Shown one piece after another: positions 40,906 through 52,771 of a stretch of 64,000 bases of DNA (position 1 is the first letter of the stretch; each line of letters opens with the position of its first letter). The translations under genes and the position numbers were made by a program. The notes under the pieces were generated by a model that had not been told where the DNA came from, searched no databases, and worked only from the letters and a program-made list of their open reading frames with translations. The stretch comes from Allobosea sp. Leaf344. Lineage in GTDB: Bacteria > Pseudomonadota > Alphaproteobacteria > Rhizobiales > Beijerinckiaceae. The stretch is from NCBI RefSeq assembly GCF_001426225.1, contig NZ_LMRT01000013.1, positions 145,803 to 209,802 of the forward strand. Reading direction: 5' to 3'.

Positions 40906-43281
40906 TCAGCGGTCCGACCCGGCAGGCGGAGAGGGGCGGGCGCCGAGCCGCCTCCCCACATCCGCGTACAGCCCCTGTAGCGGCGCGAAGGTAAAGCGCA
41001 CGGTCGAGCGGCCGGGCGGCACGGCGACGGCGCGGAAGAGCACATTGGCGCGCAGCAGCTCGGCCGGCCTCTCGTCGATGCTGACCCGCCACCAGGGGTG
41101 GTAGACGTCGTTCAGCACGAGATAGCCGCCGGAGGGGGCGTCGACCGCGATCGCCACCTCGGTCGTGCCATAGTCGAGGATGCTGGCCGAGCCGGGCAGC
41201 GCCGGGCCGGGCGGGCGGGCGGGCGCCTCCCTGTCGAGCAGGACCTGGCGGCGCGGGTCGAAACGCTCGGGCCACCGGCCGCTCGCCAGGATCTGGTCGA
41301 AATCGGCTTTGGCGGCATCGGCGACCAGGAGCACGCGCGGCAAGGCGCGCGGGTTCTCGTAGACATAGGCGTCTTTGGTGCGGGCGATCTGCGGCAGGTC
41401 GCCCGGCTTCAGCGCCTTGTCGATCTGCTCGACCGGTACGCCGGTGGCGATGAAGCGCAGGCCCAGCATATCCGCCAGCAGCGAGCGGTAGGACGGCATC
41501 AGCGGCGAGAAGCTGCGTTGGTCGGGCAGGGCGACATGGTCGCCCGCCCCGGTCGCCTTGCTGTAGAGGCCGAGACGCAGCGGATTATAGCCCAGCGTGT
41601 TGTCCAGCCCATGAATGAGGCTGGCATTGGGCCAGTGGAAATCGATGCCGGCGAGTTCGATGCGGTCGCGCCGGTCGGGGGCGGCGGTGCGCGCGGTCTC
41701 GCGCTTCAGCAGCGCGATCGTATCGTTGCGGCTGTCGGGGCGCAGCACCTCGTACATCCCGGCGGGGAGGGCGGTGGACTCGCTCGGCCCGTTATTGACC
41801 GCGAGATCGACGGTCAGCGTCGCGCCGAGCACGATCGCCGCGGTCAGCCCCGCGCCCTGCAGGCTCAGCCCGCGGGCCGCGACCAGCGCGCCGAGGCTCA
41901 GCACCCCGCACAGCCCGGCGGTGAGGATCGCCACAGCAGCGACATCCAGCCGGCCGACGGTCCAGGCCAGCCACAGCGCGAGCAGCGTCGCGCCGAGAAA
42001 GAGCCCGATCTCGACCAGGCGCTGCCATGGTTTGGCGCGCGGTGCGGCGTCGCTCATCACGAGATGGGTGAGGTAGCCGCCGAGCAGGGCCAGCATCGCG
42101 CCGACCAGGAAGAGCGCATCGGCGGGGCGGCGGTAGAAATCGATCCCCGGCAGCTCGAACAACAGGCGGAAGGCCGGGGTGTAGCGGCCGAGCGCGAAGA
42201 GCAGCAGCAGCAGCGCCGCCAGGCTGAGCGCCCTGATCTCCCGCCGCCACAGCGCGCCTCTGACGATGCCGATGGTCAGGATCAGCCCGGCCGGCAGCAG
42301 GCCGAGATAGAGCTGGCTCATATTGCGGGCGAGATAGAGCTCCAGCGCGCCGAAACGCGCCTCCCAGCCGGGGCTGGGCGCACCCCAGAAATTCTCGAGC
42401 GGGCCGGCGGCGCCGTAGAGATTGGCAAAAAGCCCGGTCAACAGCGCGGCGGGATGCAGCGACCCCTTGCCGGCGCCGATGAAATCGATCGCCGGCCGGT
42501 TCGATTCCTGGGCGAGGAAGGCGGTCAGCAGGATCGGCACGGTGGCCACGGCGACCGCGCCGATCACGCCGGCGAGCAGCGGCAGCAGGCTGGTGCGCAG
42601 CGCCTGCCAGGGCCGGCGATCCATGGCGATGGCGGCGAGGACGAGGCCGGCCAGCGCGTAGACGCCGAGCAGCGCCACCTGATCCCGCCCCAGCACCATA
42701 AAGCCGGCGACGATCCCCGCGGCGAGCCCGTACAGCACCGAGCCGCGCTCCAGCGCGCGCGAGACCAGCAGCAGCGTGACCGCGAAATAGCCGAGGCTGA
42801 GCACCTGCCCGATATGCTGGATGCGCCAGGCGGCCGAGGCGCCGAAGGCGAAGGCCAGCGCCGCGACCACCGCGCCAGCGGGGTGCCAGCCGCGATCCTT
42901 GAACAGCAGCACGAAACACAGCGCCCCGGCCAGCAGCATGCCGAGCACGGCGCCATCGCTCCAGCTGAAATCGGGCGAGGGATTGAGCGCGGCGATCAGC
43001 GCGAAGGGGGGCGAGAAGATCAGCGATTGCGGATCGGCGACCTGCGGCGAGCCGGCGAAGACATTGGGTGTCCAGAAGGCGGAGAGCCCCTTGTGCCAGC
43101 TGCCGGCGAGGAATTGCAGCTGCGGGTAGAAATGCGCCTTGGCGTCCCAGGGAATGGTGACGAGCCCCGACAGCCACGGCCAGGACAGGGCAAACCAGGC
43201 GAGGCAGACGATCAGGACCACGCCGGCCAGGGGCCAGCGCGGGGGCTGCGTCTCGTCCGGGTCGTAGAGAGGCGGTGGCAT
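40906..43281 (-). CDS. YfhO-like large membrane protein
   Basis: A 791-residue inner-membrane protein. About 12-14 helices span residues 18-470 (first LAGVVLIVCLAWFALSWPW), with the early loop WDAKAHFYPQLQFLAGSWHKG and FSPPFALIAALNPS. A soluble beta-rich C-terminal domain ends with YLVLNDVYHPWWRVSID. Loop and tail motifs match YfhO-type proteins, which are GT-C-like and glycosylate teichoic acid in Firmicutes. In Gram-negatives the role is unknown, but lipid-linked sugar transfer is plausible. The stop lies close to the convergent HAD gene. Confidence 0.8.
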   Translation of the reverse strand: MPPPLYDPDETQPPRWPLAGVVLIVCLAWFALSWPWLSGLVTIPWDAKAHFYPQLQFLAGSWHKGLSAFWTPNVFAGSPQVADPQSLIFSPPFALIAALNPSPDFSWSDGAVLGMLLAGALCFVLLFKDRGWHPAGAVVAALAFAFGASAAWRIQHIGQVLSLGYFAVTLLLVSRALERGSVLYGLAAGIVAGFMVLGRDQVALLGVYALAGLVLAAIAMDRRPWQALRTSLLPLLAGVIGAVAVATVPILLTAFLAQESNRPAIDFIGAGKGSLHPAALLTGLFANLYGAAGPLENFWGAPSPGWEARFGALELYLARNMSQLYLGLLPAGLILTIGIVRGALWRREIRALSLAALLLLLFALGRYTPAFRLLFELPGIDFYRRPADALFLVGAMLALLGGYLTHLVMSDAAPRAKPWQRLVEIGLFLGATLLALWLAWTVGRLDVAAVAILTAGLCGVLSLGALVAARGLSLQGAGLTAAIVLGATLTVDLAVNNGPSESTALPAGMYEVLRPDSRNDTIALLKRETARTAAPDRRDRIELAGIDFHWPNASLIHGLDNTLGYNPLRLGLYSKATGAGDHVALPDQRSFSPLMPSYRSLLADMLGLRFIATGVPVEQIDKALKPGDLPQIARTKDAYVYENPRALPRVLLVADAAKADFDQILASGRWPERFDPRRQVLLDREAPARPPGPALPGSASILDYGTTEVAIAVDAPSGGYLVLNDVYHPWWRVSIDERPAELLRANVLFRAVAVPPGRSTVRFTFAPLQGLYADVGRRLGARPSPPAGSDR

Positions 43282-43312: not shown

Positions 43313-44440
43313 TCAATCCTTCGGAGCGGCCCGCGCCATCAGCGCGTCCATATCGATGAAATGGCCGGCGCGATCCCGCTTGGAGGCGAGGTAGCGGACA
43401 TTATGGACGTTCGGTCGGCCGAGCACCCGCTGCGTCGCCGCGACCTCGAGGCCCGCGGCCTTGATCGCGCCGATCTTGATCGGGTTGTTGGTCAGAGCGG
43501 TGACTTTGCTGACGCCGAGCTGCTTCAGCATCACGGCGGCGAAGTCGAAATGGCGCTGGTCGAGGTCGAAGCCCAGCACCTCGTCGGCATCATAGGTGTC
43601 CCAGCCCTGGCTCTGCAGCTTATAGGCCCGCATCTTGTTGGAGATGCCGTTGCCGCGGCCTTCCTGGTCGAGATAGAGCAGGATGCCGCCGTCATTCTCG
43701 GCCATCCACTGCACCGTCTCGCGCAGCTGGTCGCCGCAATCGCATTTCAGCGAGCCGAACAGGTCGCCGGTGAGGCAGGCCGAGTGCAGCCGCACCGGGA
43801 CGGCCTCGCCCAGGTCGGGCTTGCCGACGATGATCGCGACCTGGTCGCGCAGGCCTTCGCCGCCGCGGAACACCACGAATTCGGTTTCCGGCGCGCCTTC
43901 CAGAGGCACGGGGGCGCGGCCGACGATGGTCAGCGTCTCGGTCTGCGCGCTGCGATAGGCGTTGATCGCGGCGATATCGACCGAGACCAGCGGCTCGCCG
44001 GCGATAGCCTCGGCCGTGACGGGAACCATGATGACGGCGGGCACGACGAGCGAGAGCCGCGCCAGCTCGAGCGCGGCGGTGTCGATCTCGCCGGCCGGCG
44101 CGACGGGGGCGTCCATCTTCGCATCGGTCTTCATGGCCAGCGTCTCGACCCGCGAGGGGTCGATCGTCGGCATGGCGAAGACGCCGGTCTCGGTCCGGCC
44201 CTTGGCGCCGATCCGGCGCAGCCGCGCGGCGCTGAGGATGAGGTAGCCATGGCCCTGCGCCAGCGTATCCAGCCGCGCGACGAGACCCGGCTCCGACAGC
44301 TCCGCCGACATCGCCAGCGCCAGCGTCTCGCCGGCACGCAGCAGCACCGGGCGGGCGGCCCGGAACTCGGCGATGGCGCGGTCGACGGTGACGAGGTCAG
44401 TGTCCTGCGGGCGGCCGAATAGGGTACGCGACTGAGACAT
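43313..44440 (-). CDS. ribA: GTP cyclohydrolase II (RibA) with RibB-like N-terminal half
   Basis: A 375-residue enzyme opening GTP to the first riboflavin intermediate. The RibA half (about residues 185-365) has the zinc motif C-x10-C-x-C in HSACLTGDLFGSLKCDCGDQ, the catalytic LDQEGRGNGISNKMRAYKLQ and the C-terminal NNPIKIGAIKAAG. The N-terminal 180 residues have the RibB (DHBP synthase) shape, for example GHGYLILSAARLRRIG, but I do not see intact catalytic acidic clusters, so only the RibA reaction is expected. It lies next to the pterin-synthase-like operon. Confidence 0.9.
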   Translation of the reverse strand: MSQSRTLFGRPQDTDLVTVDRAIAEFRAARPVLLRAGETLALAMSAELSEPGLVARLDTLAQGHGYLILSAARLRRIGAKGRTETGVFAMPTIDPSRVETLAMKTDAKMDAPVAPAGEIDTAALELARLSLVVPAVIMVPVTAEAIAGEPLVSVDIAAINAYRSAQTETLTIVGRAPVPLEGAPETEFVVFRGGEGLRDQVAIIVGKPDLGEAVPVRLHSACLTGDLFGSLKCDCGDQLRETVQWMAENDGGILLYLDQEGRGNGISNKMRAYKLQSQGWDTYDADEVLGFDLDQRHFDFAAVMLKQLGVSKVTALTNNPIKIGAIKAAGLEVAATQRVLGRPNVHNVRYLASKRDRAGHFIDMDALMARAAPKD

Positions 44441-44699: not shown

Positions 44700-45293
44700 G
44701 TGACGCAGGATCATGACCAGTCCGCGAGGCAAGCGACGAACCACCCCGTCTACCGCCCCGCCGCACGGCATCTGCACTGGGCGACGGCCGCCGGCATCCT
44801 CGTCATGCTGCCGCTGGGTTTCGCAATGACCTATCGCGGCGAGACGATGGATGTCTGGGACGGCATCACCAATGCGATGTTCAGCACGCATAAGCTGCTC
44901 GGCTTCCTGCTGCTCTGGCTGGTCGCCGGCCGGCTGCTCTACCGGCTGCTGAAGGGAGCGCCGCCGGACGAGCCGAGCCTGCGTCCCTGGCAGAAGCATC
45001 TGTCGCATGCGGTGCACTGGCTGCTCTATGGCCTGCTGCTGGTGGTGCCGCTGCTCGGCTGGATCGGCATATCGCTTTATCCCTCGCTGACCATCTTCGG
45101 CCTGTTCGACCTGCCGGCGCTGACCGGGCCCGACCAGCCGCGGGCCGAGCGGGCGCTCGCGGTGCACGGCCTGCTGGCGCGGGTGCTGATGGTGCTGGCG
45201 GCGCTGCATGTCGCGGCGGCGCTGCAGCATCATTTTCTGCGCCGCGACGGGGTGCTCAGGCGGATGCTGCCGGGGCTGAAGCCGCGCGGCTGA
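44700..45293 (+). CDS. Cytochrome b561-type membrane protein
   Basis: A 197-residue, four-helix membrane cytochrome. Histidines placed for two b hemes are visible: RHLHW (residue 24) in helix 1, FSTHKLLGFLLLW in helix 2, SHAVHWLLYGLLLVVPLLGW in helix 3 and VHGLLARVLMVLAALHVAAA in helix 4. Family members move electrons from quinol to periplasmic acceptors or superoxide. GTG 44700 is the only good start. It is transcribed opposite to ribA and to the pterin-like operon and is flanked by both. Confidence 0.87.
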   Translation: MTQDHDQSARQATNHPVYRPAARHLHWATAAGILVMLPLGFAMTYRGETMDVWDGITNAMFSTHKLLGFLLLWLVAGRLLYRLLKGAPPDEPSLRPWQKHLSHAVHWLLYGLLLVVPLLGWIGISLYPSLTIFGLFDLPALTGPDQPRAERALAVHGLLARVLMVLAALHVAAALQHHFLRRDGVLRRMLPGLKPRG

Positions 45294-45308: not shown

Positions 45309-46145
45309 TCAGACCGGACGGGCCCAGAGGTCGAGATGGCCGACGAGGCCGGTCGCGCTGCGCTTGGCCGCGAGCCATTCCGACACCCGCGCCGGCTCGA
45401 TCTGCCCGGTCTCCAGCACCGCGTCGGCGATGCCGCGCGTCAGCGCCTCGACGAGCTCGCGCTGCGCCTCGCCGAGCTGCCAGGCGCTGTCGCCGGTGGA
45501 GACGGCGAAGCCGGTCTTGCGGAAGGCCTCGGCCATCGCCTCGGTTGCATCGGGGCCGGCGGCGGGGCCGAAGCCCTTATCCCCGCGCTGGTGATGCAGG
45601 AAGGCCTGGAGCATCGCCCGGTCGGCGGCATGGGCCGGGGTCCAGCTCTCGCGGCCATCGAAGGTCAGCACGGTGTAGAGCGGCAGTTTCTGGCTGGCGA
45701 GAGCGGCGACGAAGCGCTCGATCCAGCGGCGCGACACCAGATCGAACAGGGCCGCCGCGGTGATCAGATCGGGCTGCCAGCCCAGAATCCATTCGAGATC
45801 GCGGGTCAGGTCGGCCTGCCGGAAATCCACGGTCAGGGATTTGCCGGCCTTGGAAAGGATGATCTCCTCGCCCTGTTCGCGCGCCTCGTCCGCCCAGGCG
45901 ATCAGGCGCGCGCGGGCGGTGGCGAGCAGGTTCTCGTCGTAATCGACCAGTGTCCAGTGCTGGCGGTCGGGCAGGGCGGCATAGGCGCCGCGCAGGTTCG
46001 AGCCCGCGCCGCAGCCGAGATCGACGATCGAGATGGCGTGTCTGGGAGCGAAATGGACGCCGACGGCGGCGAGGACCTGCGGGTTGCGAGCCGCATGATC
46101 GGCCGGCTCGCGCAGCGCCAGCCAATCGGGAGAGAAACCACCCAT
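45309..46145 (-). CDS. Class I SAM-dependent methyltransferase
   Basis: A 278-residue methyltransferase. Motif I is ISIVDLGCGAGSNLRGAYAAL (about residues 38-58, split after 20 here) and the acidic motif II is WTLVDYDENLL. There is a DFRQADLTRDLEW segment and a typical C-terminal sheet. The acceptor is unknown. It is the last gene of the five-gene operon 49112-45309 and begins directly after the glycosyltransferase stop with no gap, so it probably modifies that enzyme's product. Confidence 0.82.
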   Translation of the reverse strand: MGGFSPDWLALREPADHAARNPQVLAAVGVHFAPRHAISIVDLGCGAGSNLRGAYAALPDRQHWTLVDYDENLLATARARLIAWADEAREQGEEIILSKAGKSLTVDFRQADLTRDLEWILGWQPDLITAAALFDLVSRRWIERFVAALASQKLPLYTVLTFDGRESWTPAHAADRAMLQAFLHHQRGDKGFGPAAGPDATEAMAEAFRKTGFAVSTGDSAWQLGEAQRELVEALTRGIADAVLETGQIEPARVSEWLAAKRSATGLVGHLDLWARPV

Positions 46146-47195
46146 TCACATCACCTTCCGGCAGATCCGCGCGACGATCGCGGCCGTTTCGGCCCAGGCA
46201 GGCAAGGTCGATGCCGCCGCCCAGGCCGCATCCGCCATGTGCGCCCGCCTCGCGCCGTCGTCAATCACCTGCCGCAAGGCTGCTGCCATCCCAGCGACAT
46301 CTCCGGGCTCCACCTTGATGGCGGCTGCGTCCGGCGCGGTTTCGGCGGCCGCGCCACCCGTGGTGCAGATCAGCGGCAGCCCGCGCGCCAGCGCCTCGGT
46401 GAGGACCATGCCATAGCCTTCGAACAGCGAGGGCATCACGAAGAGGTCGGCAGCGGCATAGGCGCGCGCCAGCGCCGCGTCGTCGACGGCGCCGGCCAGG
46501 GTGATGCGGTCGCCGAGGCCGGCCTCCGCGATCTGCTGCCGCAGGGCTTCCGTGGTTTCCGGCGCGCGGTCTTCAGCCCCGATGATGGTCAGCCGCCAGG
46601 GCAGATCCGCGAGCCCGGCCAGCGCCGCGACCAGCACGTCATAGCCCTTGCGCGGCACGATCGAGCCGACGGCGAGCAGGGCGAGCCCGCTGCCGGGCGG
46701 CGAACCCGCGGCCCGTTCGGCGCGGTCGACCCCCGGGACGGCCACCGTGATGCGATCCTCGGGCACGCCATAGTCCGAGATCAGGAGCCGCTTCGTCGCC
46801 GGGCTGGTGACGATGACGGCGCTGGCATAGCGCAGGGCGGCCGTCTCGCTCGCCCGCAGCGCGCTGGCCCGATCGACCGTCAGCCCCGTCTCATAGGCGA
46901 GGGGGTGATGAACCAGCGCGACGACGCGGCCGGCGAGGCCGGCGGCGATGCTCTCGGGTAAGGCGCCATAGGCGAGGCCGTCGATCAGCAGCGCGGCGTC
47001 GAAGGGCTGGGACAGGATCGAGCGGCCGGTCTCGGCGAGGTCCTCAGGCGTCGGAGCCGGGAAGGAGCCGGGCAGCGGGAGATGGCGCGCCGCCACCCCG
47101 CTGGCCCGCCATTCCGCGAGGAGCCGCCGGTCATAGGCGTAGCCGCCGGTCGGCAGGTCGATGTCGCCGGGGATGGCGAAGGCGATCTCGCTCAC
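46146..47195 (-). CDS. Family 4 glycosyltransferase
   Basis: A 349-residue GT-B enzyme. The N-terminal acceptor domain starts FAIPGDIDLPTGGYAYDRRL. The donor domain has VGSIVPRKGYDVLVAAL (about residues 178-194) and the retaining-GT4 E-x7-E motif in SLFEGYGMVLTEALARGLPL (about residues 263-282). It uses a nucleotide sugar. The acceptor is unknown. It overlaps the preceding pterin-synthase-like gene by 4 nt. GT4 enzymes glycosylate biopterin in cyanobacteria, which makes a pterin acceptor worth testing. Confidence 0.85.
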   Translation of the reverse strand: MSEIAFAIPGDIDLPTGGYAYDRRLLAEWRASGVAARHLPLPGSFPAPTPEDLAETGRSILSQPFDAALLIDGLAYGALPESIAAGLAGRVVALVHHPLAYETGLTVDRASALRASETAALRYASAVIVTSPATKRLLISDYGVPEDRITVAVPGVDRAERAAGSPPGSGLALLAVGSIVPRKGYDVLVAALAGLADLPWRLTIIGAEDRAPETTEALRQQIAEAGLGDRITLAGAVDDAALARAYAAADLFVMPSLFEGYGMVLTEALARGLPLICTTGGAAAETAPDAAAIKVEPGDVAGMAAALRQVIDDGARRAHMADAAWAAASTLPAWAETAAIVARICRKVM

Positions 47196-47593
47196 GCGAG
47201 CGCACCCTCATAGCTCGCCCGCGCCAGATCGGTCTCGTGCAAGGTCACGCGGATGCGGGAGAGGCCGCCAGCGTCCTCGCCCAGGGCGCCGCTGCGCGCC
47301 GCCGCGGCCATGGCGTCGAAGATGTGCCTGCACAGGAATTCGGTGGTGGTCAGCACGCCGGCGAATTGCGGCAGCGTGTCGAGGTTCTGGTAGTTGAGCG
47401 GCTTCAGCGTCGCGTTCAGCACGGTCAGCGCGGCGCCGATATCGACCACGACGTTCTGCCGGGTCAGCTGCTCCCGGAAGAAGGCGACGTCGACGACGAA
47501 GGTGGCGCCATGCATGTTCTGCGCGGGGCCGAAGAACGGGTCCGGCAGCGAATGGCCGATCATGATGCGATCGCGGACTTCGACTGAGAACAT
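47192..47593 (-). CDS. Atypical 6-pyruvoyl-tetrahydropterin synthase family protein
   Basis: A 133-residue T-fold protein of the PTPS/QueD family. Aligned by eye to E. coli QueD, the first zinc His (H14, IGHSL) and second (H28, MHGA) are kept, but the third is Ala30 (HGH to HGA). The catalytic Cys has no counterpart, and the Asp-His pair (LDHHYLN) reads LNYQNLD. The pterin-ring Glu residues appear kept (E85 in TTTE, E120 in LHET). A normal QueD or PTPS reaction is therefore unlikely, although pterin binding may remain. It is in the middle of the operon, with overlap to the GT4 gene. Confidence 0.83.
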   Translation of the reverse strand: MFSVEVRDRIMIGHSLPDPFFGPAQNMHGATFVVDVAFFREQLTRQNVVVDIGAALTVLNATLKPLNYQNLDTLPQFAGVLTTTEFLCRHIFDAMAAAARSGALGEDAGGLSRIRVTLHETDLARASYEGALA

Positions 47594-47625
47594 GCGGTTT
47601 CCTTCGGAGAGTGGGGAGCGGATGA

Positions 47626-48078
47626 TCAGGCCGCGATCGGGCGGCGGCCTAGGGATTGCGAGAAGCGCAGGAGGTACCCGTCCGGATCCTGCACGAGAAA
47701 CTGGTGGACGCCCGTCTCCTCATCCGCAGCGATTCGGTACCACCGCTCTTCGGGCCCGAAGAACAGCGGCCAGGCGGCGCGGTTCAGGGCGGCCAGCAGG
47801 ATGTCGAGATCGTCCACGCCGATCTCGAAATTAATGCCGCGGCCATAGGGTTTCTCGCGCGCGCCCGTATCCCAGCAGCGCTCGGAGGGCCCCGTCTCGT
47901 ATTCCTCCAGCATGAACTCGACGCCGTCGCGCTCGATCGCCGCGAAACCCTGTTCCGGCCGGTCATAGAGCACGCGGAAACCGAGCAGTTCGCGCCAGAA
48001 GGCGAGGCTCGCGGGGAGCGAGGTGATGTAGAGTTCCGGCACGAGCGACGGACGGGGATGCGAACGTGGCGACGTCAT
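47626..48078 (-). CDS. VOC-superfamily protein (bleomycin-resistance/glyoxalase fold)
   Basis: A 150-residue protein with paired beta-alpha-beta-beta-beta modules: VPELYITSLPASLAFWRELL at the start and FLVQDPDGYLLRFSQSL at the end. It resembles BLMA-type drug-binding proteins, which lack catalytic metal. It overlaps the upstream dehydrogenase gene by 4 nt (ATGA) and is followed 32 nt later by the PTPS-like gene. In this setting it might be an isomerase or binding protein for the pathway intermediate, which is speculation. Confidence 0.82.
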   Translation of the reverse strand: MTSPRSHPRPSLVPELYITSLPASLAFWRELLGFRVLYDRPEQGFAAIERDGVEFMLEEYETGPSERCWDTGAREKPYGRGINFEIGVDDLDILLAALNRAAWPLFFGPEERWYRIAADEETGVHQFLVQDPDGYLLRFSQSLGRRPIAA

Positions 48079-49112
48079 GGCGCGGCTTCATAGCAGATCG
48101 CGGCCGTCAGGCCACGCGCGCCGGGGGCGAGAAGCAGCGGGAGCCTGGCGGGCGCCTCGTCGAACGCGATCTCCTCGGTGATCAGCGCGTCGAGCAGCGG
48201 CTCGGCGAGGAGGGCCATCGCCGCGGCGCTGCGGCGGGCATAATCCCAGCGGGGGCGGCGGCTGGGGGCGATCGCACCGACCTGGCTCGAGACCAGTTGC
48301 AGCCGCCGCGCATGGAAGGCGCCGCCGAGCGGAGCGGCGACGGCGCCCTCGCCATACCAGCTCATCTCGACGATGCAGCCTTCCTGCCCGGCCGCGGCGA
48401 TGGCGGTGGCGAGCCCCGGCGCGGAGGCGCTGGCGTGGAAGACGATGTCGGCCTCGCGCGGCGCCTCGCCCGGCAGGGCGAAGCCGAGCCCCAGCCAGGC
48501 GGCGATGGCGGCGCGGGCGGGGTCGAGATCGACCAGCGTCACCTCCGCGCCGGGCAGCCTTGCGGCGAGCCAGGCCACCAGCAGGCCGAGCACCCCGCCG
48601 CCGACCACGACGATACGGTCGGCCGGGCCGGAGCCGGCATCCCAATGCGCGTTCAGCGCCGTCTCCATATTGGCGGCGAGGACAGCGCGCCGGGCCGGCA
48701 CCTCGGCGGGGACGGGGACCAGCCGGTCGGCCGGCGCCACGAAGCGGTCCTGATGGGGGTGCAGGCAGAAGACGATGCGGCCGAGCAGCCGCGCCGGCCC
48801 GGCTTCAACGATACCGACGGCGCAATAGCCGTATTTGACCGGAAACGGGAAATCGCCCTCCTGGAACGGCGCCCGCATGCGCTCGAACTCGCTCGGCGGC
48901 ACCCGCCCTTCGAAGACCAGCCGCTCGGTGCCGCGGCTGATGCCGCTCCAGAGCGTGCGCACCACGCAATCCTCGGGACCGGGCTCCGGAAGCGAAACCG
49001 CGTTCAGGGCGCATTCACCCGCCGCGACATACCAGAGCGCCCGGGCCGTGCGGCCTGCGCCCGGGACCGTTGCCGGACGTCCCTCCTGCGCCATATCGAC
49101 CCGGTCCCGCAT
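48075..49112 (-). CDS. BchC-like medium-chain dehydrogenase without zinc ligands
   Basis: A 345-residue MDR-fold oxidoreductase. Rossmann motif VVVGGGVLGLLVAWLAA (about residues 150-166), then LVDLDPAR as the NAD-binding acidic strand. The usual catalytic zinc ligands (GxCGxxxxD and GHE) are replaced by LWSGISRGTERLVFEG and YGYCAVG, as seen in BchC-type enzymes. A structural zinc Cys4 loop is absent. Start ATG 49112 has GAGG 4 nt before it; ATG 49094 is also possible. It is the first gene of the operon, 58 nt from the divergent opgH. Confidence 0.82.
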   Translation of the reverse strand: MRDRVDMAQEGRPATVPGAGRTARALWYVAAGECALNAVSLPEPGPEDCVVRTLWSGISRGTERLVFEGRVPPSEFERMRAPFQEGDFPFPVKYGYCAVGIVEAGPARLLGRIVFCLHPHQDRFVAPADRLVPVPAEVPARRAVLAANMETALNAHWDAGSGPADRIVVVGGGVLGLLVAWLAARLPGAEVTLVDLDPARAAIAAWLGLGFALPGEAPREADIVFHASASAPGLATAIAAAGQEGCIVEMSWYGEGAVAAPLGGAFHARRLQLVSSQVGAIAPSRRPRWDYARRSAAAMALLAEPLLDALITEEIAFDEAPARLPLLLAPGARGLTAAICYEAAP

Positions 49113-49170: not shown

Positions 49171-50982
49171 ATGAACCAGCGCCCCGCTCCGACCACGTTC
49201 CAGCCGGGCGCGCAAGGGCTCGCGGCCACGCAGACGACGCCGGCCGGGCTGCAGGGGCTGGCGGTGCTGCGGTTCCGCCGCCTGCTGGTGCTCGGCCTCA
49301 ACCTCGCGACGCTCGCCTTGCTGCTGCTCGGCCTGGCCGAGGTGCTCGGCGCGGGCGGCTGGAGTGTCGCCGATTACGCGATCTTTGTCGCCTTCCTGTT
49401 CGGCGCGCCCTGGACGGTGCTGGGCTTCTGGAACGCGGTGATCGGGCTCTGGCTGCTGCATGGCGTGCGCGACGGGCTGGCGCGCGTCGCGCCTTTCGCC
49501 GAGGCCGGAGAGCTGGCGACGCCGATCAGCATCCGCACCGCCATTCTGATGACGCTGCGCAACGAGGATCCGGAGCGGGCGTTCCGCCGGCTGCGCGTCG
49601 TCCGCGACAGTGTCGATGCGACGGGGGAGGGGGCGGCCTTCGATTATTTCGTGCTGTCCGACACCAATGACGCGGCGGTCGGCGCGGTCGAGGAGCGGCT
49701 CGCGGCGGAATGGGCGCGCGATCTCGGCGAGGCCGGCCGGCTGCTCTATCGCCGCCGCAGCGACAATGCCGGGTTCAAGGCTGGCAATGTCCGCGATTTC
49801 TGCGAGCGCTGGGGCGCGGATTACGAGGTCATGCTGCCGCTCGACGCCGACAGCGTGATGTCGGGCGAGGCGATCGTGACGTTGACCAGGATGATGCAGG
49901 CCCATCCAAGGCTCGGTATCCTGCAGAGCCTGGTGGTGGGCATGCCGAGCCGCTCGGCCTTCGCCCGGATCTTCCAGTTCGGCATGCGCCACGGGATGCG
50001 GCCCTACACCATGGGCTCGGCCTGGTGGATCGGCGATTGCGGGCCGTTCTGGGGTCACAACGCCATGGTCCGGATCGCGCCCTTCCGCGACGAATGCCAT
50101 CTGCCGGTGCTGCCGGGCGGGCCGCCGCTCGGCGGGGCGGTGATGAGCCACGACCAGGTCGAGGCCACCCTGATGCGGCGCGCCGGCTACGAGGTGCGCG
50201 TGCTGCCGACCGAGATGGGGAGCTGGGAGGAAAACCCGCCGACCATGCTCGACTTCGCCAAGCGCGACCTGCGCTGGTGCCTCGGCAATCTGCAATATCT
50301 GAAGCTGCTCGACCTGCCCGGCCTGAAGCCGATGAGCCGCTTCCAGCTGGTCTGGGCGATCCTGATGTTCCTCGGCCTGCCGGCCTGGACGCTGATGATC
50401 GCGCTGCTGCCGGTGAAGGTGATCGAGGATGCCGGCATCCCCGCCTATCCCGCGACGCTCGCCGCCGGTCTCTACGTGCTGTTCTTCGCGATGTATCTCT
50501 CGCCGAAACTGGCGGGCTTCGCTGACATCCTGCTGACGCGCGGCGGTACGTCCCGCTATGGCGGCACGGGCCGCTTCATCCTGTCCTCGCTGATCGAGAT
50601 CGTCTTCGCCTTCCTGCAGGGCGCGGTCTCCACCTTCCGCACGACGCTGTTCATGATCGGCCTCGCCTTCGGCCGGGCCCGGATCGGCTGGAACGGCCAG
50701 GCCCGCGACGCGCATGCGCTCTCCTTCGCCACGGCCTTCGCCGGGCTCTGGCCGCATCTGCTGTTCGGGCTCTACATCTTCGCGACGCTGTCGGTGCTGT
50801 CGCCGACGGTGCTGATCTGGTCCCTGCCCTTGACAGCGGGCTATGTGCTGGGGATCCCCTTCGCGATGATCACCGCGCTGCCGGCGCTCGGGCACTGGTT
50901 CGCCAAGGCCGGGCTGTGCGGCATCCCCGAGGATTTCGACCCGCCGGCCGAACTCCGCGCCATCCGCAACGAGGCTGACTGA
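49171..50982 (+). CDS. opgH: Osmoregulated periplasmic glucan glucosyltransferase OpgH (MdoH)
   Basis: A 603-residue GT2 membrane enzyme that polymerises glucose from UDP-glucose and moves the chain across the inner membrane. Membrane helices at about residues 38-100 flank a cytosolic catalytic domain with LSDTNDAAVGAVEERLAA, LDADSVMSGEAIV, and the QxxRW-like RDLRWCLGNLQY. Four or five C-terminal helices follow. It lacks the long N-terminal cytosolic part of E. coli OpgH (847 residues), as is usual in alphaproteobacteria. No opgG/opgD partner is in the window. The next two genes look cotranscribed. Confidence 0.92.
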   Translation: MNQRPAPTTFQPGAQGLAATQTTPAGLQGLAVLRFRRLLVLGLNLATLALLLLGLAEVLGAGGWSVADYAIFVAFLFGAPWTVLGFWNAVIGLWLLHGVRDGLARVAPFAEAGELATPISIRTAILMTLRNEDPERAFRRLRVVRDSVDATGEGAAFDYFVLSDTNDAAVGAVEERLAAEWARDLGEAGRLLYRRRSDNAGFKAGNVRDFCERWGADYEVMLPLDADSVMSGEAIVTLTRMMQAHPRLGILQSLVVGMPSRSAFARIFQFGMRHGMRPYTMGSAWWIGDCGPFWGHNAMVRIAPFRDECHLPVLPGGPPLGGAVMSHDQVEATLMRRAGYEVRVLPTEMGSWEENPPTMLDFAKRDLRWCLGNLQYLKLLDLPGLKPMSRFQLVWAILMFLGLPAWTLMIALLPVKVIEDAGIPAYPATLAAGLYVLFFAMYLSPKLAGFADILLTRGGTSRYGGTGRFILSSLIEIVFAFLQGAVSTFRTTLFMIGLAFGRARIGWNGQARDAHALSFATAFAGLWPHLLFGLYIFATLSVLSPTVLIWSLPLTAGYVLGIPFAMITALPALGHWFAKAGLCGIPEDFDPPAELRAIRNEAD

Positions 50983-51744
50983 ATGATGCCCGGCATCGCC
51001 TATCCCAGGGGCACGGCCAAGGCGCTCGCGCGGTCGCTGCGGGTCTATCACGGCGATGCCGAGCGCAACCGCGCCATGGATGCGCTCTATGCGCAATTCC
51101 TGGCGCCGGGCGACCTGGCCTTCGACATCGGCGCGCATGTCGGCGACCGGATCTCCTCCTTCCGCAGGCTCGGCGCCCGCGTCGTCGCGCTGGAGCCGCA
51201 ACCCGGGCCGGCGCGCGCCATCAGGCTGATCCATGGCCGTGATCCGCTGGTCACGCTGGTCCAGGCCGCCTGCGGCGACCGCGAGGGCGTGATCGAGCTG
51301 AAGATCAACAGCGCGAACCCCACCGTCTCCACCGCCTCCGACGCCTTCGTCGGCGCGGCCGCGGGGGCCGATGGCTGGCAGGACCAGGTCTGGGACCGCA
51401 GCCTCGGCGTGCCATGCACGACGCTGGACGCGCTGATCGCCGCGCATGGCGTACCGGCCCTGGCCAAGATCGACGTCGAGGGCTTCGAGGCCCATGTGCT
51501 GGCCGGGCTGACGCGGCCGATCCCGGTCATCTCCTTCGAATTCACCACCATTCAGCGCGACGTGGCCGAGGCCTGCCTCGCGCTGCTCGAGACGCTCGGA
51601 CCCTATCGCTTCAACGTGGCGCTGGGCGAGAGCCAGCGGCTCGAACTGAGCGAGGGCGCCAGCGCCGAGGCGATGGGCCAGTTCCTGCGGGAGCTTCCGC
51701 ACGCCGCCAATTCCGGCGATGTGTATGCGGTGCTCGGCGCCTGA
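50983..51744 (+). CDS. FkbM-family methyltransferase
   Basis: A 253-residue SAM enzyme. Motif I is LAFDIGAHVGDRISSFRRLG (about residues 46-65), followed by VVALEPQP, and the FkbM hallmark is AKIDVEGFEAHVLAGL (about residues 161-176). FkbM enzymes methylate hydroxyls of sugars, polyketides or lipids. It starts directly at the opgH stop with no gap, so the natural guess is methylation of the glucan or its precursor. That assignment is inference. Confidence 0.88.
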   Translation: MMPGIAYPRGTAKALARSLRVYHGDAERNRAMDALYAQFLAPGDLAFDIGAHVGDRISSFRRLGARVVALEPQPGPARAIRLIHGRDPLVTLVQAACGDREGVIELKINSANPTVSTASDAFVGAAAGADGWQDQVWDRSLGVPCTTLDALIAAHGVPALAKIDVEGFEAHVLAGLTRPIPVISFEFTTIQRDVAEACLALLETLGPYRFNVALGESQRLELSEGASAEAMGQFLRELPHAANSGDVYAVLGA

Positions 51745-51802
51745 TGCTTCTTCACGGCGCCAGCGCGCGCTCGACACTGCCCGCCACCATCGGAAGACGT
51801 CC

Positions 51803-52771
51803 ATGCAAGCCAAGCTCGTAACCCTGTTCCTGTCCCTGCTGCTCGCGTCTAGCCTGCCGGTACGGGCCGCAAGCGACGTGGCGGTGGAGGTGAAGAACGA
51901 ATCCGAGCCGGTGCTCTGCGCCGAGAAGGACAACGTCACCATCAAGGCGCTCTCGCCCGAGGTGCGGCGCTTCCAGATCGAGGCCGCGCATCCGGCCTAT
52001 ATCGCCGGGCTGGTCAAGGATAATTGGGAGGCGGACTGGACCGCCTGCGACATGACCGGCGACCCGGTGTTCAAGGCGCCGGTGCCGCCGCGCCGCGTCA
52101 CCTTCTATGAGAGCATCGAGTACTGGCTGGTCGGCTATACCTTCCCGACCTTCTGGCGGCCGGCCGACACGGTCTTCAAGGTCGGGGATCGTGTCGAGAA
52201 GGGGCTGCATCTCGTCCAGCTCTGGAAGCTCGGCAAGGACAAATCCTATGAGGTGTTGGTGGTCTATCCGCAGGATGGTTACTGGCGCGCCAGGCCGATG
52301 CCACCCGGGCATCTCGGCTTCTCCTCCTATGGCTCCTCCTTCCTGTTCGGGCCGATCGAGCAGGATGGCGCGCGCCCGGTCGTGAACATCCGCGAAATCG
52401 AGTTCGATCCGGCGACGCTGTCCTTCAAGATGGCGTTCAAGGATGGCAGCAACGGCACGCTGAAGCTCGACAGCGTCGACGAGAACCGGATGGTTCTCGA
52501 CGCGCTGCTCGACAAGCCGGTGACCGGCGGCAAGGCCTTCGTGGCGCTGCGCTCGATGTATGTCACGGAGTTCAACAACGACGTGGCGCGGATCGCGGTG
52601 CGGGAGCCCGGCGCCAAGGGCTGGCGCGAGGAGCCGCTGATGCCCTTCGCCGGCGCCAAGGCGACCGATGTCTGGATGGGCCGCACCACCCATTCGCGGC
52701 ACAACACCTCCTCGCCCGACATGGTCTTCCGCAATTTCTCCAAGGATCCGAACCCTCCGGCGAAGAAGTAG
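51803..52771 (+). CDS. Secreted protein of unknown family
   Basis: A 322-residue protein with an N-terminal signal peptide (LVTLFLSLLLASSLPVRAA, residues 5-23). The mature part is beta-rich, has few cysteines and shows the pattern WEADWTACDMTGDP, then FYESIEYWLVGYTFPTFWRP and GHLGFSSYGSSFLFGPIEQD. No domain is recognised. It lies 58 nt after the FkbM gene on the same strand and probably belongs to the OpgH group, so a periplasmic role in glucan handling is possible but unproven. Confidence 0.78.
   Translation: MQAKLVTLFLSLLLASSLPVRAASDVAVEVKNESEPVLCAEKDNVTIKALSPEVRRFQIEAAHPAYIAGLVKDNWEADWTACDMTGDPVFKAPVPPRRVTFYESIEYWLVGYTFPTFWRPADTVFKVGDRVEKGLHLVQLWKLGKDKSYEVLVVYPQDGYWRARPMPPGHLGFSSYGSSFLFGPIEQDGARPVVNIREIEFDPATLSFKMAFKDGSNGTLKLDSVDENRMVLDALLDKPVTGGKAFVALRSMYVTEFNNDVARIAVREPGAKGWREEPLMPFAGAKATDVWMGRTTHSRHNTSSPDMVFRNFSKDPNPPAKK

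Follow-up and report, generated by a model that had tools for sequence, protein, structure and literature searches.

Genes of the operon

The window analyzed here (i.e., the whole 64,000-nucleotide stretch at positions 145,803 to 209,802 of contig NZ_LMRT01000013.1 from Allobosea sp. Leaf344) carries five minus-strand genes that run in one direction. They encode a BchC-like medium-chain dehydrogenase/reductase (MDR)-type dehydrogenase (DH; 48075..49112), in which the usual zinc ligands appear to be replaced; a VOC/glyoxalase-fold protein (47626..48078; PF00903, 1.4e-6); a T-fold protein (47192..47593) that resembles 6-pyruvoyl tetrahydropterin synthase (PTPS) and belongs with SCO6650 to the PTPS-IV (FGPAQ) subfamily; a GT4 glycosyltransferase (46146..47195; PF00534, 2.8e-29); and a class I S-adenosylmethionine-dependent methyltransferase (MT; 45309..46145; PF13649, 8e-7) with no close family. 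The open reading frames and translations of the window place these genes where a first-pass annotation had put them. The DH and VOC genes overlap by 4 bases, 32 bases separate the VOC gene from the PTPS-like gene, the latter overlaps the GT4 gene by 4 bases, and the GT4 gene directly abuts the MT gene. The ribA gene (43313..44440, minus strand), which encodes GTP cyclohydrolase II, lies 868 bases from the MT gene, as the annotation had noted in round figures (0.9 kb), with the opposite-strand cytochrome b561 gene in between. We regard it as moderately likely that these genes belong to a GTP-derived pathway, entered through RibA, around the named and uncharacterized PTPS-IV subfamily.

The best NCBIfam model for the DH is that of BchC, a protein of bacteriochlorophyll synthesis (TIGR01202; 58.5 bits, 5.6e-16), yet the score is far below the cut-off of 291.25 bits and BchC identity was rejected on this ground. 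In an alignment of 28 sequences, S59-R-G-T-E63 and Y94-G-Y96 are invariant, at the places where the catalytic zinc-ligand motifs of MDR enzymes read CGTD and GHE. Relatives of the DH are named zinc-dependent alcohol dehydrogenases in databases, a name that failed the zinc-ligand test, SRGTE and YGY apparently standing in the place of the ligands. The AlphaFold2 (AF2) model of the DH (predicted local distance difference test [pLDDT] score, 89.3) has threonine, polyol, and alcohol dehydrogenases as its nearest folds, all of them broad matches; the start of the protein is uncertain, residues 1 to 19 being of low confidence. Because the AF2 model of the MT (pLDDT, 96.5) matches only generic class I structures, it suggests no acceptor for the methyl group.

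Conservation of the four-gene core

The genes are genuine and closely packed, and their conservation exceeds what chance would give. The genes, strand, and packing of the five-gene operon described at first pass all stood, but the conserved unit is a four-gene core (i.e., DH-PTPS-GT4-MT), to which the VOC gene is an optional extra that occurs at 8 of the 29 other same-genus loci, at locus L032, at 1 of 80 named loci, and at none of 32 class-level loci. The PTPS-like gene is present once in each of the 36 same-genus genomes searched, and the nearest named relatives of the window protein are from Bosea (profile scan and tree). Its profile matched 91 of 297 genomes at the level of the order (2 of them weakly), 45 of 385 at that of the class, and 59 of 398 at that of the phylum (27 of them strongly). 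The scores were bimodal, with strong matches above 130 bits (plus a split match of 98 bits in genome G119) and weak ones at 41 bits or less.

The same-genus loci were obtained from 29 of the 36 other same-genus genomes. At class level, 44 genomes matched besides that of the window; 32 of them make up the class-level set, and 12 were left out. The named set holds the best 80 of at least 549 loci and is rich in Bosea and Hyphomicrobiales. The locus sets overlap slightly (e.g., L038 and L108 look like one locus), so that the 137 loci or sequences counted below are not all independent. Since the hidden Markov models (HMMs) were derived from these same loci, the numbers given for remote members are minimum values.

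The full core was found in order at 27 of the 32 class-level, 4 of the 7 phylum-level, and 63 of the 80 named loci and at none of 20 control stretches. The controls (18 kb each, from other parts of 20 carrier genomes, at round-number positions picked by hand) gave a single creatininase match and no other family. These counts bear out the suggestion that the genes act as one conserved unit. Taken singly, the DH, GT4, and MT genes occur at 31, 31, and 28 class-level loci, at 7, 7, and 4 phylum-level loci, and at 68, 78, and 74 named loci, respectively. Among the 17 named loci without the full core, 12 are shorter than 12 kb, L138 has its GT4 gene in two pieces, and L101, L104, L113, and L141 have no DH match. 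At class level, the incomplete loci are L157, L179, and L181 (no MT match), L177 (short, no DH), and L183 (DH apart, no GT4 or MT).

A conserved neighborhood in relatives, the check on which the operon had been staked beforehand, was thus observed, the core recurring across Alphaproteobacteria, in Thiodictyon (Gammaproteobacteria), and in Actinomycetota. It also lies on annotated plasmids of Streptomyces fungicidicus, Microbacterium, Thiodictyon, Methylosinus (M. trichosporium OB3b), Neorhizobium, and Agrobacterium; the MT of the Methylosinus and Neorhizobium plasmids is annotated as hypothetical and was recognized by HMM. In a PTPS-IV tree (75 rows, few columns, 28 open forks), actinobacterial rows appear in two places, a split that would fit horizontal transfer and is not proof of it. 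Two Streptomyces plasmids (L191 and L202) have lone PTPS-IV relatives near MEKHLA, cupin, and MBL-fold genes and no core, possibly reflecting a different use.

The PTPS-IV protein and its putative GTP cyclohydrolase II partner

The PTPS-like protein matches PF01242 (5.4e-21) but scores only 30.8 bits against the QueD model TIGR03367 (cut-off, 89.25) and 23.7 bits against TIGR00039 (cut-off, 125.5). Its closest solved structure is SCO6650 of Streptomyces coelicolor (PDB 3d7j), which matched by profile at 6.3e-53 over all 132 positions (next matches, about 1e-5) and which shares with it the subfamily, FGPAQ, and HGA. The structure paper reportedly describes SCO6650 as lacking both zinc and PTPS activity. 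In a profile alignment with rat and human PTPS (1b66/3i2b), Ala replaces both the catalytic Cys and the second His of HGH (a zinc ligand) in the window protein, and Asn/Tyr stand in the place of the Asp-His pair. A24 (the Cys place) and A30 (the zinc His place) are found in all 137 PTPS-IV sequences; the place of the paired His holds Tyr in 123 sequences and His in none, and that of the paired Asp holds Asp in 6. This set omits L191 and L202, both of which also have A24 and A30, as well as rows that are short or contain stops or unknown letters.

Residues 21 to 25 of the window protein are FGPAQ, which the PTPS-IV section of the AGeNNT report gives as the subfamily signature (PMC5445326); FGPA occurs in 137 of the 137 sequences and Q25 in 135. 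The motifs that a passage of another report describes for canonical PTPS and QueD are a catalytic Cys with an HGH zinc motif (i.e., CxxxHGH or CxxxxxHGH; PMC5041015). On the basis of motif and model scores, canonical PTPS/QueD identity was rejected, and by motif the protein is not a pterin synthase. Because H14, FGPA (21 to 24), H28-G-A30, D51, D72, E85, and E120 are invariant in all 137 sequences, the active-site losses are fixed in a protein under constraint, a pattern that points to changed chemistry and is unlike that of a decaying gene. The protein is labeled 6-carboxytetrahydropterin synthase in 14 of 20 matched plasmid records. Some of these records (L190, L192, L193, L198, and others) give it a queuosine Gene Ontology term, to which the motif lends no support.

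The RibA of the window scores 491.5 bits against PRK08815, above the cut-off of 464, and has both a Tyr and an intact three-Cys motif (CLTGDLFGSLKCDCG), which we take to be the zinc motif. That motif is kept in 56 of the 57 RibA genes at the loci, a count that leaves out L195 and L196 (both elsewhere in the Allobosea sp. Leaf344 genome). Seven of the 57 genes are shorter and lie several kilobases from the core, all at Hyphomicrobium-type loci, and the Tyr was undetected at L097, L133, L160, and L176. L195 encodes a RibBA (from translation) whose RibA half lacks the Cys motif, which leaves the cluster ribA as the sole GTP cyclohydrolase II gene of the genome having it.

The placing of ribA near the core, noted at first pass for this locus, extends to 13 of the 32 class-level, 2 of the 7 phylum-level, and 33 of the 80 named loci. 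A stand-alone RibD_C reductase gene accompanies the core at 24, 6, and 36 loci of these sets, respectively, while neither family occurs in the 20 controls. In the class- and phylum-level sets, 23 of the 30 RibD_C genes are no more than 500 bases from the core. The cluster RibD_C proteins form a subfamily of their own (GQSLDGRIAT; HLH) in which the Lys position of housekeeping RibD holds Gln or His in 72 of 74 sequences and Lys in none. Since this Lys is replaced, these reductases may act on a substrate other than the one used in making riboflavin. The core also occurs together with RibA and/or RibD_C on the plasmids of Streptomyces, Thiodictyon, Microbacterium, and Agrobacterium. A FolE-like gene (probe, FolE of Allobosea sp. 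Leaf344) was found at 1 of the 137 loci versus 1 of the 20 control stretches; FolE is thus not a partner of the core, the control being too small for more, and a FolE entry is disfavored by this neighborhood scan.

On the S. fungicidicus plasmid, DH-PTPS-GT4-MT stands with RibA and a creatininase-family gene; the Bosea locus differs in having no creatininase, CDP-alcohol transferase, or flippase gene. The S. fungicidicus RibA has Met where that of Bosea has Tyr. A RibA with Met for Tyr (SCO6655) stops at the formyl compound, which would fit the adjoining creatininase-family gene. A rule by which Met-type RibA goes with creatininase and Tyr-type RibA without it failed, creatininase and Tyr-type RibA being found together at L033, L151, L155, L180, and L184. 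Creatininase genes occur at 6 class-level and 3 phylum-level loci; likeness of a creatininase-family protein to ArfB is weak (19.2 bits), and it matches MftE/creatininase models better.

Proposed pathway and alternative readings

The PTPS-IV subfamily, one structure, and the neighboring families PF00925 and PF01872 are already published or deposited. Neighborhood cluster 62 of AGeNNT (2017) is PTPS-IV, with the FGPAQ signature and these two neighbors (PMC5445326). FGPAQ is common to that cluster and the window; of the two neighbors, ribA (PF00925) lies 868 bases from the MT gene in the window, and Allobosea sp. Leaf344 has no stand-alone PF01872 (RibD_C). The report calls PF00925 GTP cyclohydrolase I/FolE2, whereas the Pfam name is GTP cyclohydrolase II, and in its PTPS-IV section DH, GT4, MT, CDP-alcohol transferase, and flippase go unmentioned and no product is proposed (PMC5445326). 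The first-pass statement that no described pathway has exactly this gene set holds for the product and not for the subfamily or its RibA/RibD_C neighborhood. The clusters have RibA and a RibD_C-type reductase in common with riboflavin synthesis and the archaeal RibA/Arf-RibD_C route but differ in that the reductase lacks the housekeeping Lys and PTPS-IV, DH, GT4, and MT are added. The annotated plasmid stretches, the only loci searched in this respect, list no riboflavin synthase genes.

We propose, with somewhat better than even confidence, that the operon represents, in Bosea, a widespread PTPS-IV cluster that makes a GTP-derived small molecule by way of a GTP cyclohydrolase II (pyrimidine) entry rather than FolE. 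RibA, judged by family function and intact motifs, would convert GTP into 2,5-diamino-6-ribosylamino-pyrimidinone phosphate, and the stand-alone RibD-type reductase of most sampled carriers may reduce the ribosyl side chain or a later ring. Allobosea sp. Leaf344 has no such separate reductase, and its housekeeping RibD would take over this role, if any reductase is used at all. Because metal and triad residues are lost while other residues are invariant, PTPS-IV is suggested to act as a T-fold pocket enzyme that rearranges or cyclizes the intermediate. The DH, with no zinc ligands and a polyol-dehydrogenase-like fold, might oxidize or reduce a side-chain hydroxyl, after which, from family function, GT4 would add a sugar and MT a methyl group. 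A GTP-derived product, glycosylated and methylated as first suggested and also oxidized, is the likeliest output of such a RibA-entry route. Vicine is a pyrimidine glucoside made in faba bean by a plant pathway that has, to our knowledge, no PTPS-like protein. It is a precedent for a RibA-started compound, as a passage of one report indicates (PMC12202586). The cluster is compact, its altered active site is fixed, and it recurs at a minimum of 549 places that span two phyla and include plasmids. Its gene set and the linked RibA/RibD_C entry make the product findable, which would correct a widely copied annotation (i.e., 6-carboxytetrahydropterin synthase).

Several observations weigh against this proposal. 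RibA is absent from 19 of the 32 class-level and 5 of the 7 phylum-level loci, and the class-level count may be 12 of 32, as the RibA of L176 has no Cys motif and is probably not a cluster enzyme. Allobosea sp. Leaf344 has no stand-alone RibD_C gene; its single RibD_C domain lies inside a RibD of bifunctional length, which is followed by a riboflavin-synthase-like gene (read from translation). The four named loci without a DH match are about 20 kb each, and L141 has only the PTPS gene; DH-PTPS-GT4 occurs without an MT match at 3 of the 7 phylum-level and 3 of the 32 class-level loci; and a Rhodobacteraceae plasmid cluster lacks GT4. No metabolite is known, and a literature search, with most subscription papers out of reach, found neither the complete core nor its lipid-type partners described, nor any product. 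Moreover, among the three GCHII-domain (i.e., GTP cyclohydrolase II domain) genes of Allobosea sp. Leaf344, only the cluster ribA has the Cys motif, the RibBA copy being half degenerate, and the cluster RibA may be the riboflavin enzyme and there for that only. Such a housekeeping bystander, with the operon using another precursor, is nevertheless quite unlikely. In other families of the order, 3 of 5 loci (L033, L035, and L036) likewise have RibA near the core, the sequence of L034 stopping 1.2 kb beyond it. RibA is also near the core on Agrobacterium and Streptomyces plasmids, for which a second, dedicated copy is the simpler explanation (their chromosomes were not searched for further copies). 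Envelope-type genes (i.e., OpgH, FkbM, YfhO-like, CDP-alcohol transferase, and flippase) are also common beside the core in many carriers. With GT4 and MT they could assemble or modify a glycan or lipid of the cell surface, PTPS-IV binding a regulator or acting on a sugar. In favor of this are OpgH at 66 of the 80 named loci, CDP-alcohol transferase at 7 and a flippase-like gene at 6 of the 7 phylum-level loci, sulfatase, flippase-like, and CDP-alcohol genes at the Agrobacterium locus, and the presence of OpgH by the core at L033:5095 (G054) and L034:4680 (G060; 93% complete) though no OpgG-family gene was found in either genome. We nonetheless consider an envelope pathway unlikely, for it leaves RibD_C and RibA unexplained, OpgH and CDP-alcohol transferase are both missing from 18 of the 32 class-level loci, and the four OpgG-family genes elsewhere in Allobosea sp. 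Leaf344 mean that OpgH may simply serve glucans.

A FolE-derived pterin was the original suggestion for PTPS-IV, which would then use dihydroneopterin triphosphate like PTPS and QueD and lead to a glycosylated, methylated tetrahydropterin. The PF01242 fold, the FolE gene elsewhere in the Allobosea sp. Leaf344 genome, the existence of cyanobacterial pterin glycosides, and the invariant E120, which by position stands where PTPS holds the pterin, speak for it. Against it are the missing residues (the catalytic Cys, the Asp-His pair, and the second His of HGH) and the enrichment of RibA and RibD_C in place of FolE, and we now hold it to be distinctly improbable. That PTPS-IV is the QueD of Bosea, making queuosine, is very improbable. 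Allobosea sp. Leaf344 does have QueC, and PTPS-IV is its only PF01242 protein, but CxxxHGH is missing from PTPS-IV, and full-length QueC (E < 1e-50) occurs in only 46 of 78 PTPS-IV genomes (66 above cut-off when short partial matches are counted). The queC gene of Allobosea sp. Leaf344 is moreover about 37 kb away, and no que genes are listed in the annotated plasmid stretches. This QueC (G000:C12:232348-233016; L204:6301-7047) lies beside a YhhQ-like gene (from translation) in a genome whose only PTPS-family protein found is PTPS-IV. A role in F420 biosynthesis is stated, as unpublished, for the subfamily in a passage of Zallot 2016 (PMC5041015). The census of CofH disfavors it to the point of extreme improbability, since CofH exceeds the cut-off in just 8 of 78 PTPS-IV genomes (that of G207 is split and under the cut-off) and neither CofH nor FbiC was found in the Allobosea sp. 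Leaf344 genome.

An extended form of the RibA-entry proposal, which we advance only as a long shot, would lead to a pterin or pyrimidine cofactor without the help of FolE. The RibA product would be rearranged and closed by a metal-free PTPS-IV, reduced by the dihydrofolate reductase (DHFR)-like RibD_C, oxidized, glycosylated, and methylated. In some carriers (i.e., one Agrobacterium and two actinobacterial plasmids and most phylum-level proteobacterial loci) CDP-alcohol transferase would then link it to a lipid, and it would be flipped to the other side of the membrane, where the b561 or YceI proteins that some clusters encode could pass electrons to or from it. In the class-level sample, YceI (8 loci) and b561 (6) are found, flippase-like genes are absent (0), and OpgH (6) and CDP-alcohol transferase (8) are mutually exclusive; both of the latter occur at two phylum-level loci.

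The window itself shows several of these conserved neighbors. The cytochrome b561 gene (44700..45293, plus strand; Pfam) is near the core at 50 of the 80 named loci. Upstream of the DH, opgH (49180..50982, plus strand), which encodes an MdoH-like glucan glucosyltransferase, is divergent and is followed by a gene for an FkbM methyltransferase (50983..51744, plus strand; Pfam/NCBIfam; 42 of 80). A large membrane protein with a weak YfhO/PMT match below the cut-offs is encoded beyond ribA (40906..43281, minus strand; 25 of 80). Within the FkbM gene, ARAGORN called a tRNA-Glu (51575-51662) that did not reach the Rfam gathering score and is probably false. Downstream of opgH-FkbM, a protein without a Pfam match (E up to 0.01) is encoded at 51788-52771 and is present at 46 of the 80 named loci.

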